A stretch of DNA of 64,000 nucleotides. Source: Reichenbachiella sp. (GTDB taxonomy: Bacteria; Bacteroidota; Bacteroidia; Cytophagales; Cyclobacteriaceae). The notes under the pieces are model-generated. The model was not told the origin of the DNA, searched no databases, and was given only the letters and a program-made list of their open reading frames with translations. The position numbers were made by a program, and so were the translations under genes. The stretch covers positions 3,024,001-3,088,000 of the forward strand of contig NZ_JAWPMM010000001.1 of the NCBI RefSeq assembly GCF_033344935.1, in the 5' to 3' direction. Shown here piece by piece: positions 8,584-11,509 of the stretch; position 1 is the stretch's first letter; every line of letters starts with the position of its first letter.

Positions 8584-9009
8584 TTAATTGCTCTTTAATA
8601 ATTCTTCTTCAAATTGATTTTCTTCATTCAGTTGCCAAGAGGTTGTCTTTTCAACTTTTGTTTCATTGACCGAAGCAATGATGTACGAAAAGAAAGGTAC
8701 CGCTTGCTTCAAGTCATGCTCGGAAGGAATCGCTGGATGCAATGGATGTGAGTGATAAATTCCCAAAAGTTCCAACTGATTCGCTAAAGCATATTGCTCC
8801 GCTTTCATGTAGTCCAACGGATTCACCTCAAATCGTCTTCGTTGATCCCCTTCCTTGCTGTTTTCTAACGGTCCATACTCCGTCACAGTTTTAATATCTC
8901 CTTCTGATTTGCCGTAGAAAAAACCTACACATTCATTAGGGAAATCAGACAACGCATGACGATGCATTTCTTTTAGAATTTCTTCTGATACTTGAATTTG
9001 TTTCTTCAT
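8584..9009 (-). CDS. mec: Mec-like JAMM/MPN+ zinc metallopeptidase
   Basis: The 141-residue protein is a stand-alone JAMM domain with all expected ligands: Glu26 (NECVGFFYG), His86 and His88 (YHSHP), Ser96 and Asp99 (PSEHD). In Mycobacterium tuberculosis, Mec releases cysteine from the CysO-cysteine adduct made by CysM; a related JAMM protein, QbsD, trims two residues from a sulfur carrier to expose Gly-Gly. Both roles are possible here, because the neighbouring CysO-like protein carries two extra residues after Gly-Gly. The gene is 1 nt from cysM upstream and 7 nt from cysO downstream, the same order as in the well-studied system. Confidence 0.9.
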   Translation of the reverse strand: MKKQIQVSEEILKEMHRHALSDFPNECVGFFYGKSEGDIKTVTEYGPLENSKEGDQRRRFEVNPLDYMKAEQYALANQLELLGIYHSHPLHPAIPSEHDLKQAVPFFSYIIASVNETKVEKTTSWQLNEENQFEEELLKSN

Positions 9010-9010
9010 T

Positions 9011-9940
9011 TTAAAACAAAGACTTAATCACTTCACTATACTTTTCTGCATTATCAGGGAAAAGGGTTACAATAACTCCCTCATCTATTTCTTCTGCCAA
9101 TTGCAACGCACCTTTTAGGTTTGCTGCTGCTGACGGGCTGATCATCAACCCTTCTTTCTTCGCAGCCAATTTTAAAGTTTCGTAAGCGTCGAAAGTATCC
9201 ACATTCATGAAGCGATCTGCCAACGATGGATCATAGATTCCAGGCACCTTGGCCGTCTCCATATCTTTCCATCCTTCTAGCCCGTGCAAAGCGCCATCTG
9301 GCTGCAAAGCAATCGTGGTAATGCCTTCATTGACCTCTTTCAGTCTTTTACTTATTCCCGTAAAAGAACCTGTAGTACCTAAGCCTGTCACAAAGTGTGT
9401 CAGGCTTCCATTTACTTTTGAAATGATCTCCTCACTTGTGGTATCATAGTGCGCCTTCCAGTTGTTTTCGTTTCCATATTGATCAGCCAGGAAATATTTA
9501 TCTGGTTCGTTTTGGTAAAGCTCAAGTGCTTTCTCCTGTGCTTCGTCAGTTGAGCCAAATTTAGAAGTATAAACAATCGATACTCCCAGTCCTTTCAAAA
9601 GCATTTTTCGTTCCCAAGAAGCATTCTCTGGCAAACAAATAGTTACTGGAATACCAAGCCTGGCACCGATAGTTGCATATGCTATTGCTGTGTTACCACT
9701 TGATGCATCTAAAAGTATTTTTCCTTGACCTAAGTCTCCGTTGAGTACCGCCTGCTTTATGATATTGTAAGCAGGTCTTGCTTTCACACTACCACCGAAC
9801 TGCATCCATTCCAATTTGGCTAAAATGCGCACGGATTTTTTAGGCGAGATGTGCTGAAGCTCATACAAGGGAGTGTTTCCTATGTGATTACCAAGGGCTA
9901 AAACACTTTCAACAATTTCTGATTCTTGACTGATTACCAT
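9011..9940 (-). CDS. cysM: CysM-type PLP-dependent cysteine synthase
   Basis: The 309-residue protein is a fold-type II PLP enzyme. The lysine that binds PLP is Lys53 (GGSVKARPA), the substrate loop is SSGNTA (residues 81-85), and the phosphate-binding loop is GLGTTGS. The genetic context (mec, cysO, moeZ) indicates the CysM branch, which takes sulfur from a protein thiocarboxylate rather than free sulfide. In mycobacteria the acceptor is O-phosphoserine; whether that holds here cannot be read from the sequence. The gene is preceded by a leader with a poly-cysteine reading frame and a terminator ending about 25 nt before its ATG, so expression is probably controlled by attenuation. Confidence 0.92.
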   Translation of the reverse strand: MVISQESEIVESVLALGNHIGNTPLYELQHISPKKSVRILAKLEWMQFGGSVKARPAYNIIKQAVLNGDLGQGKILLDASSGNTAIAYATIGARLGIPVTICLPENASWERKMLLKGLGVSIVYTSKFGSTDEAQEKALELYQNEPDKYFLADQYGNENNWKAHYDTTSEEIISKVNGSLTHFVTGLGTTGSFTGISKRLKEVNEGITTIALQPDGALHGLEGWKDMETAKVPGIYDPSLADRFMNVDTFDAYETLKLAAKKEGLMISPSAAANLKGALQLAEEIDEGVIVTLFPDNAEKYSEVIKSLF

Positions 9941-9963
9941 TGTAAATATTGAGGTTTTAAAAC

Positions 9964-10000
9964 GAAAAAGGCCTTACTCAATTTGAGAAAGGCCCTTTTT
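9964..10000 (-). terminator. Attenuator terminator upstream of cysM
   Basis: On the minus strand an A-rich left arm AAAAAGGGCCTT pairs with AAGGCCTTTTT, with an inner stem CTCA/TGAG and a 3-nt loop; only one T/T mismatch and one bulged G interrupt it. A U run follows directly. It lies between the poly-Cys leader ORF (stop at 10030) and the cysM ATG (9940), where it would end transcription before the operon. It cannot be the end of lhgO, because about 130 nt of leader with the Cys-rich frame lies in between. Confidence 0.85.
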
Positions 10001-10029
10001 ATATTTTTATCGTATGATATTTCTATAAA

Positions 10030-10086
10030 TTATAAACTTTCCCATAAACACCAATTAGGTGCACAACAGCAACAACATGCCATCAT
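10030..10086 (-). CDS. Poly-cysteine leader peptide of the cysM operon
   Basis: Eighteen codons from ATG (10086) to TAA (10030-10032) read MMACCCCCAPNWCLWESL: five consecutive cysteine codons and a sixth further on. A terminator starts 30 nt after the stop codon, and the operon behind it encodes cysteine synthesis. This is the arrangement of classical amino-acid attenuators, in which scarcity of the charged tRNA stalls the ribosome in the leader and prevents the terminator from forming. No standard gene finder would report so short a frame. The second ATG (10083) is an equally possible start. No clear Shine-Dalgarno sequence is seen, as is normal in this phylum. Confidence 0.8.
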   Translation of the reverse strand: MMACCCCCAPNWCLWESL

Positions 10087-10109
10087 CGCGTTTTGAATTG
10101 TGTTTATGG
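10042..10109 (-). promoter_or_regulatory. Long-range leader hairpin enclosing the poly-Cys codons
   Basis: The arms CCATAAACACAATT (10109 down to 10096) and AATTGGTGTTTATGG (10056 down to 10042) pair over 14 bp with one bulge. The loop holds the leader start codons and all five consecutive Cys codons. The 3' arm overlaps by 3 nt a segment UGGGAAAG (10044-10037) that can pair, with one G-U wobble, with CUUUCUCA in the left arm of the terminator. A ribosome stalled on the Cys codons would leave that segment free; one at the stop codon would cover it. The pairing is seen in the sequence; the switch is inferred. Confidence 0.6.
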
Positions 10110-10257
10110 TACTTTTTGTTTTCAATGTCTGAATTTTGAATTCTTCAACGCAAGTTTCTTTGATAAGTTTATGAATTCATAATTTTTAATTAAAAAAATT
10201 ATGCAACCGCTAATTATTTAACGTTTTGGTAAACAAACCTCTCAGTTATTAACAATT

Positions 10258-11451
10258 TCAAAATCTTTTAATGACTCGACTGGCAATTTCATCGCCAATA
10301 GCTAATGAGGATGTTGCCGCAGGTGAAGGCGCATTACAAACATTCACAAAATGGTCATTTTCTAAAATATGAAAATCATCCAACAAACCACCAGAGCGAT
10401 CACAGGCCTGAGCGCGTACACCAGCACCTCCAGTTTCCAAATCAGATTCTCTGATGTCAGGAATAAGTTTCTGCAAGGCTTTTGTAAAAGCTGCTTTAGA
10501 AAATGAACGGTACATCTCTCCAAAGCCAGTTTTCCAATATTTCATAGCGACTTTTTGAAAACCTGGCCAAGCCAAAGTTTCTAGCAATTCAGCAACATTG
10601 ATATCCAATTTAGTATATCCTTCACGAGCAAAAGCCAATACGGCGTTGGGTCCTGCTTCTACCCCTCCATTCATCATACGAGTGAAGTGTACGCCCAAAA
10701 AAGGAAAGTTTGGATCAGGAACTGGATATATAAGATTCTTAACTAAATGTTTACTTGATTCTTTAAGCTGATAGTATTCGCCGCGAAAAGGTACAATCTT
10801 GAGATCCGGCTTTAGTGGCGTCATTTTAGCTACTTTATCCGAATAGAGCCCAGCGCAGTTCACAATCAACTTCGCTTGGTATTCATTGTTATTTGTAACC
10901 ACCTCACTCGATGAACCCTGATGGTCGACCTTGATGACCTTTTCGTTGTAGAAGATAGCAACACCTGCTTCGAGCAATTTACTCTCTAGTTTTTTACATA
11001 CCTCTTTGTAATCAATGATTCCTGTTTGTGGCACATAAATTCCTTTGACGCCAGTGACGTAAGGTTCATGCTCTTTGATTTCTTCAGGAGTGAGCCAAAG
11101 CATATTCTTTAGACCATTTTGCTCTCCTCTTTCAAACAAGGTCTCCAAATATGGTATTTCATGATTGTCAGTAGCCACTACGACTTTCCCACACAGATCG
11201 AAATCAACCCCTTCTGTTCGACAGAAATCTAACATCAAATCATATCCTTTGATGCAATTGGTTGCTTTAAGACTTCCAGGTTTATAATAGAGGCCAGAAT
11301 GTATAACGCCACTATTGTTGCCCGTTTGGTGATGGGCAGGACCGGACTCCTTCTCTAATATGGTTATGGAAAGATTAGGTGATTGTTGTTTGACCTGCCA
11401 GGCAGTAGCCAATCCTACAATCCCTCCTCCTATTACTATGACGTCTTTCAT
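10258..11451 (-). CDS. lhgO: L-2-hydroxyglutarate oxidase LhgO
   Basis: The 397-residue flavoprotein begins with an FAD-binding Rossmann motif (VIGGGIVGLATAW) and belongs to the DAO superfamily. The segments HHQTGNNSGVIHSGLYYKPGS, FRGEYYQL, FPFLGVHFTRMMNGGVEAGPNAVLA and GGAGVRAQA are typical of LhgO. LhgO oxidises L-2-hydroxyglutarate to 2-oxoglutarate, repairing or recycling a by-product, and in Enterobacteria passes electrons to the quinone pool. The gene sits 58 nt downstream of msrB on the same strand and may be the last member of that transcript. It is followed by about 170 nt before the cysM leader ORF. Confidence 0.93.
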   Translation of the reverse strand: MKDVIVIGGGIVGLATAWQVKQQSPNLSITILEKESGPAHHQTGNNSGVIHSGLYYKPGSLKATNCIKGYDLMLDFCRTEGVDFDLCGKVVVATDNHEIPYLETLFERGEQNGLKNMLWLTPEEIKEHEPYVTGVKGIYVPQTGIIDYKEVCKKLESKLLEAGVAIFYNEKVIKVDHQGSSSEVVTNNNEYQAKLIVNCAGLYSDKVAKMTPLKPDLKIVPFRGEYYQLKESSKHLVKNLIYPVPDPNFPFLGVHFTRMMNGGVEAGPNAVLAFAREGYTKLDINVAELLETLAWPGFQKVAMKYWKTGFGEMYRSFSKAAFTKALQKLIPDIRESDLETGGAGVRAQACDRSGGLLDDFHILENDHFVNVCNAPSPAATSSLAIGDEIASRVIKRF

Positions 11452-11509
11452 AAATGCTCGCGAATGAGTGGCGAAAATAATTAATGAAAGACGAAATTCT
11501 TAATAGGTT

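Follow-up and report, generated by a model that had tools for sequence, protein, structure and literature searches.

The locus

The window, the whole stretch of 64,000 nucleotides of the Reichenbachiella genome that was analysed, contains on its minus strand a four-gene operon of the cysM-mec-cysO-moeZ type, which is preceded by a short reading frame with five Cys codons in a row (table 1). The genes are named by type and gene order because they score below the curated cut-offs against the NCBIfam models for cysM, SAMP1 and MoeZ. The association of the frame with this gene set extends to other genomes: in the fetched stretches of the 95 leader loci described below mec is present in 89, cysO in 88 and moeZ in 86. 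An lhgO-type gene is located upstream of the window leader on the same strand.

The poly-Cys frame, the terminator and an 8-bp alternative pairing between the end of the frame and the terminator 5' arm, which the initial annotation had described in front of the cysM-type operon, are all present in the sequence. The terminator hairpin stops 25 nt short of the cysM ATG (9940). The 14-bp hairpin that was said to enclose the Cys codons (the 1:2 hairpin) is also formed by the window leader as described, with one bulged G (p 0.045). The entire region 10130-9940 folds with a z of -3.5 relative to 200 shuffles, none of which folded equally well. Among the Rfam 15 families (T-box, SAM, amino-acid leaders) none scored above its gathering score in window positions 9000-11500, and an Rfam 15 scan of 13 cysM loci likewise gave no family at the gathering score. 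Further upstream, the heptamer ACTTGCG at 10155-10149 resembles by eye ACTTTGCG, which is similarly placed in L010 and L012, and could be a -7 promoter element.

Table 1. Features of the poly-Cys leader and the downstream operon (positions in the window)
Feature	Position	Strand	Basis
Leader ORF, MMACCCCCAPNWCLWESL and stop	10086-10030	minus	sequence; poly-Cys frame in 95/120 non-duplicate orthologous upstream regions
Leader start codons (two ATG)	10086-10084 and 10083-10081	minus	sequence
Five consecutive Cys codons, TGT TGT TGC TGT TGT (proposed sensor)	10077-10063	minus	sequence; no run of at least 4 in shuffles
Sixth Cys codon	10050-10048	minus	sequence
Leader stop codon, TAA	10032-10030	minus	sequence
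1:2 (protector) hairpin, left arm	10109-10096	minus	sequence and folding; p 0.045 for the window leader
1:2 hairpin, right arm (overlaps segment 2)	10056-10042	minus	sequence and folding
Antiterminator strand (segment 2), TGGGAAAG	10044-10037	minus	window alone E -9.2, p 0.16
Partner of the antiterminator (segment 3), CTTTCTCA, within the terminator 5' arm	9991-9984	minus	alternative-pairing test
Intrinsic terminator: hairpin AAAAGGGCCTTTCTCAAATTGAGTAAGGCCTTTTT (9999-9965) and the T-rich stretch after it	9999-9959	minus	-17.4 kcal/mol
cysM-type cysteine synthase (PALP)	9940-9011	minus	Pfam, NCBIfam
mec-type JAB/JAMM peptidase (Prok-JAB)	9009-8584	minus	Pfam
cysO-type ThiS/MoaD-like sulphur carrier (ThiS)	8576-8298	minus	Pfam
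moeZ-type adenylyltransferase/rhodanese (ThiF and rhodanese)	8287-7148	minus	Pfam, NCBIfam

Conservation of the cysteine codons

Regions upstream of genes of this cysM type were drawn from four partly overlapping sets of genomes: 59 relatives, 390 from the order, 395 from the phylum and 295 from the family. To these were added 80 loci from a wider genome-contig collection, the best among at least 580, and because of this selection the leader frequencies given here are not census values. Removal of 10 duplicates from 130 loci left 120 upstream regions, and 95 of these contain a short frame in which at least three Cys codons follow one another. The Cys run, whose conservation among relatives had been proposed as a test of the initial annotation, is thus conserved, with the congener L007 as an exception. 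Leaders are found in records named as Reichenbachiella, Chitinophagaceae, Saprospiraceae, some Flavobacteriales, Fodinibius and other Balneolales, as well as in L114, a metagenome-assembled genome titled Rhodopirellula, where a binning error is possible. The longest runs reach 9 Cys.

To gauge chance, the 400 nt in front of 117 cysM orthologues (L106, L131 and L148 excluded) were shuffled in 20 rounds. Runs of at least three, four and five Cys codons occur in 91, 76 and 58 of the 117 regions; the shuffles average 2.1, 0 and 0, and the opposite strand has 7, 1 and 0. A chance origin is rejected, with no run of four or more in 20 rounds of shuffling against 76 of 117 observed. The same DNA read one frame back gives TTG and CTG codons for Leu, and this alternative is rejected on two grounds: every one of the 377 Leu codons in that frame is a YTG, as arises from TGY read out of register, and Leu codons of other kinds are absent; and the interruptions of the run preserve the Cys frame.

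In the remaining 25 of the 120 regions the frame is absent (L007, L016, L086, L089, L092, L093, L105, L106, L109, L111, L123, L127, L131, L132, L135, L138-L142, L144, L146, L147, L155 and L168). Two of these regions are cut short (L106, 70 nt; L131, 0 nt), seven belong to records titled as other phyla (L132, L138, L140, L141, L144, L146 and L147) and L142 is titled 'bacterium'. The congener L007 has the operon without the leader, and besides it 19 leader-less loci have mec in the fetched stretch together with a full upstream region. No poly-Cys frame lies on the coding strand in the 600 nt ahead of the more distant cysK/cysM types (L017-L030).

Terminator and antiterminator

The 95 loci contain 113 leader frames, not counting one extra frame of L063 that lies at the same place in another register. 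A T-tailed hairpin follows 101 of these frames, and the pairing test covered every one of the 101. The segment behind the Cys run pairs with the terminator 5' arm better than its own shuffles do (mean z -2.60), the pairing reaching p<=0.05 in 72 leaders and p<=0.01 in 35, whereas the control pairings of the same segment with the 3' arm and of the segment before the Cys run with the 5' arm give mean z values of only -0.24 and -0.14. Both the terminator and the alternative pairing, which the proposed check among relatives also named, are conserved in the family. When similar leaders were collapsed, which reduced the set from 101 to 86, the mean z was -2.66 and 62 of the 86 had p<=0.05. In 82 of the collapsed leaders an in-frame ATG stands ahead of the Cys run, and the terminator hairpin lies a median of 29 nt past the stop codon.

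The specificity of the pairing is seen when the arms are swapped among the 86 leaders: cognate pairs average -13.75 kcal/mol and exchanged ones -9.80, and the cognate average was not attained once in 5000 permutations. The 5' arms fall into groups, CCTTTC in 41 leaders, CTCCAC in 13, CCCTTC in 9, and others, and the segments behind the Cys run change to match. This is a three-way compensatory change, which involves the 5' arm, the 3' arm and the antiterminator.

By shuffling, the antiterminator alone is not significant in 29 of the 101 leaders, including that of the window (p 0.16). The shortness of the 8-bp pairing had been named as a weakness of the proposal; this is correct for the window, whose antiterminator is among the weaker members of its family, but it is not typical of the collapsed leaders.

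For 12 of the 113 frames no terminator was detected (L084, L097, L098, L104, L129, L137 with two frames, L149 and L151-L154). Nine of these loci have a frame that ends directly after the Cys run, one or two residues separating the run from the stop in L084, L097, L098, L129, L149 and L151-L154. The frame of L150 also ends after the run, and this leader was tested with a doubtful hairpin (p 0.57). Most of the seven terminator-less cysM leaders that were inspected have a short hairpin after the stop codon and then a pyrimidine-rich stretch, where perhaps Rho-dependent or translational control operates.

Ribosome position and the choice of structure

Between the last Cys codon and the start of the main antiterminator helix the median distance is 15 nt, with at least 9 nt in 84 of the 86 leaders. 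The midpoint of the helix lies a median of 11 nt ahead of the stop codon and falls between 18 nt before and 12 nt after the stop in 53 leaders, outside these limits in 33. The effect of ribosome position was simulated with a simple footprint model that folds only the RNA ahead of the ribosome, takes the terminator loop as the end of the transcript, and allows neither for base pairs formed across the ribosome nor for the timing of its release. With the ribosome at the middle Cys codon, upstream RNA in the model holds the 5' arm in 85 of 86 leaders, and with the ribosome at the stop codon in 19. A clear switch (difference >0.3) is predicted for 73 of the 86 leaders, against 23% of segment-shuffled trials. 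The values for the window are 1.0 at the Cys codons and 0.0 at the stop, which agrees with the earlier claim that the segment would be free in the one case and covered in the other. In the simulation without a ribosome, upstream RNA holds the 5' arm in 64 of the 86 leaders.

Four congeners, L004, L005, L006 and L008, have an antiterminator that starts about 10 nt past the stop codon. The two of them that are in the collapsed set, L004 and L008, show no switch in the simulation, and therefore another element, perhaps the 1:2 hairpin, must act there; 11 further collapsed leaders do not switch in the simulation either. An equivalent of the 1:2 hairpin is significant (p<=0.05) in 16 of the 86 collapsed leaders, among them the window and L008, and it is rejected as a general element on this count. 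The hairpin that the initial annotation drew around the Cys codons is present in the window but is a local feature.

Other poly-Cys leaders and tandem copies

Runs of five Cys codons were searched for in 29 relatives, and the matches listed were followed up by reading 30 loci and 20 fetched stretches. Poly-Cys frames also precede two other kinds of genes. One is a gene of the nitrite/sulfite reductase family (Pfam NIR_SIR; the best NCBIfam match, NirA, is below cut-off), for which 35 loci were found and 30 read, 16 of these 30 with a poly-Cys frame. Terminators follow 17 of the 19 reductase frames, and the antiterminator is significant at p<=0.05 in 11 of the 17, with a mean z of -1.85. The genome of the window itself has such a second leader, MNICWMCCCCMLSYSGRYTFNELLKTRS (L247, the same place as L031), about 170 nt upstream of the reductase gene at 181,648 (G000:C1). 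It has the same design as the cysM leader, and its antiterminator CGGGAGA (p 0.02) is situated about 40 nt ahead of the stop, which places it behind a ribosome at the stop codon and not under it. In L229 and L241 a terminator-less poly-Cys frame and then a terminator-type one precede the reductase gene, and a SAM-I riboswitch is present in the same stretch.

The other kind is a gene for a MetY-type enzyme (Pfam Cys_Met_Meta_PP; NCBIfam OAH_OAS_sulfhy just below cut-off, the protein being partial). Here 36 loci were found and 30 read, and a poly-Cys frame lies within 600 nt in 17 of the 30, the Cys run being mostly at or near the stop codon. Behind the frames of these 17 loci a single hairpin with a T tail was detected, a weak one in L265. 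With the exception of L271, all of the 30 metY loci (29) have an Rfam match to the SAM-I riboswitch ahead of the gene on the coding strand, and in L259, L261, L264, L270, L284, L286 and L287 terminator-less poly-Cys frames lie downstream of SAM-I and before metY. The frame and the riboswitch could together form a two-signal leader. No metY match was found in the genus of the window at the E-value used.

Before cysM, two poly-Cys frames occur in tandem at 18 of the 95 loci, and in 17 of the 18 each frame has its own terminator, L137 having none. Two complete attenuators can be read in series at L011, L014, L062, L064, L070-L073, L077, L081, L082, L087, L088, L116, L124, L130 and L133.

Within the window's genome, 56 matches to TGY4 led to 30 loci and four further stretches that were read, the remainder being mostly one repeat array. 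The counts leave out the intergenic runs L045 and L226, which no in-frame ATG precedes. Three members of the genus (L188, L191 and L224) have a frame ending in SGSNCCCCC(C) and a stop between genes that look, by eye, like murI and nuoH; it overlaps the end of murI, no terminator was detected after it, and it was likewise left out. In L201 (G040) some 200 nt separate a poly-Cys frame from a downstream gene whose N-terminus, judged by eye, is that of a TonB/SusC-like receptor.

The cysM attenuator is probably one part of a sulphur-assimilation regulon. On balance we lean towards the wider proposal that poly-Cys frames control a cysteine-starvation regulon in many Bacteroidota. The frames would be of the terminator type before cysM-mec-cysO-moeZ and nitrite/sulfite reductase genes, in some cases in series, and terminator-less before metY, where SAM-I lies upstream.

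Mechanism and alternatives

The window element very probably acts as a ribosome-mediated transcription attenuator, with cysteine supply as its signal. The attenuator interpretation of the initial annotation is supported by the conserved Cys run, the conserved terminator and the co-varying antiterminator, and by a geometry that in a simple model fits ribosome footprints. When Cys-tRNA is scarce, the ribosome would stall at the Cys codons of the leader; the segment about 15 nt downstream would remain free and pair with the emerging 5' arm of the terminator, and with this antiterminator formed RNA polymerase would continue into cysM-mec-cysO-moeZ. With ample cysteine the ribosome would reach the stop codon and mask the segment, and the terminator would form. 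We infer that control is exerted by charged tRNA-Cys, on a leader with a promoter and transcription start, a translated frame, ribosome stalling and a response to cysteine.

Three other explanations of the same frame have to be considered. The poly-Cys frame could govern access to the cysM start site, the hairpin and T tail being incidental, in line with mycobacterial poly-Cys frames that secondary reports describe, for M. smegmatis, as acting at translation. Such translational attenuation would suit the nine cysM leaders whose Cys run stands beside the stop and for which no terminator was detected, and also the metY frames, where L265 provides the only, weak, terminator-like hairpin. It is nevertheless improbable for the window element, given that a terminator-type hairpin and T tail follow 101 of the 113 frames and that the partner which covaries is the terminator 5' arm.

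The other two explanations ascribe the effect to the peptide. The nascent poly-Cys chain might itself stall the ribosome through thiol, persulfide or metal chemistry in the exit tunnel, and in this way sense redox state or sulphide rather than tRNA charging; the outcome at the RNA would be identical, and the runs of up to 9 Cys speak for it. However, outside the run the peptides vary widely between genera, and the run itself is interrupted in several leaders (CCTTFCCC, CCCSCCC, CCPCCCC), which makes nascent-chain sensing quite improbable. Alternatively the peptide might act in trans by binding metal or RNA, action in trans being known for the leader peptide peTrpL (PMC7298713, as far as the available part of that source describes it), and the terminator would then merely end the transcript of the upstream lhgO-type gene, which is on the same strand. 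Against this stand the presence of lhgO in the fetched stretch of just 14 of the 95 leader loci and the variation of the peptide while the RNA pairing is preserved, and we regard this possibility as extremely improbable. Transcription attenuation by ribosome position is the reading that we prefer.

Comparison with known systems

In the trp and his attenuators a leader peptide contains codons for the product of the pathway, antiterminator and terminator compete, and the position of the ribosome decides between them. The poly-Cys leaders resemble them in each of these respects: the leader ORF contains a run of product codons, a terminator precedes the first gene in the window and in 101 of 113 family frames, an antiterminator competes for the 5' arm in the family (the window alone having p 0.16), and in the model ribosome position is decisive, the 5' arm being held in 85 of 86 leaders on the Cys codons and in 19 of 86 at the stop, with L004 and L008 as exceptions. 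They differ in responding, by our proposal, to cysteine and not to Trp or His, in that a significant 1:2 hairpin occurs in only 16 of 86 leaders, and in that at some loci two complete attenuators stand in series.

Poly-Cys attenuation that responds to cysteine was reportedly described in M. smegmatis by Canestrari in 2020, as other papers cite it. Actinobacterial poly-Cys leader frames before cysteine genes are described in the available parts of PMC1262725 and PMC4633059, and cysteine-responsive attenuation in M. smegmatis is presented as translational in those of PMC13236596, PMC9094748 and PMC9031893. The likeness lies in the runs of Cys codons before cysteine genes; the difference, apart from the other phylum, is the translational control there and, in the accessible text of PMC1262725, the lack of conserved terminator hairpins at such frames. 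The mycobacterial type of translational attenuator, a leader without a terminator, does not describe the window leader, which has a terminator and a co-varying antiterminator. The cysM leaders of the Fodinibius-like kind and those of metY are nearer to the actinobacterial frames than the window leader is. The uORFC-8-2 motif (PMC8632094), according to the part of the paper available, is likewise a computed Cys-codon leader with an end resembling an intrinsic terminator, with two Cys codons before cysS and in Rhodobacterales only; the window leader, with five Cys codons, a cysM operon and relatives in Bacteroidota, is distinct from it. Within Bacteroidota, leader-peptide attenuation has been suspected upstream of amino-acid operons of Flavobacterium psychrophilum (PMC9723704); the phylum and the kind of operon are shared, but the available part of that source names no Cys leader.

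Significance

No report of poly-Cys leaders in Bacteroidota was found among the matches listed in the literature searched, which covered few subscription journals and no supplements and is therefore no proof of novelty. The more novel parts are the tandem form and the apparent regulon. In the sources found, and to the extent that their text was available, cysteine attenuation with experimental backing is that of mycobacteria and acts at translation. If our reading is true, the bacteria represented in records of Cytophagales, Chitinophagales, Saprospiraceae and some Flavobacteriales would possess a protein-free cysteine sensor that operates on transcription, and single and tandem leaders would offer natural designs for comparison. 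If the regulon is real, serial attenuators would multiply and sharpen the response, and one metY mRNA would read both SAM and cysteine. The poly-Cys frame would also serve as a marker by which sulphur genes, and the way they are regulated, could be found in genomes whose annotation omits short frames, and its position before the CysO-CysM-type operon would support a role of this operon in cysteine supply beyond the actinobacteria.
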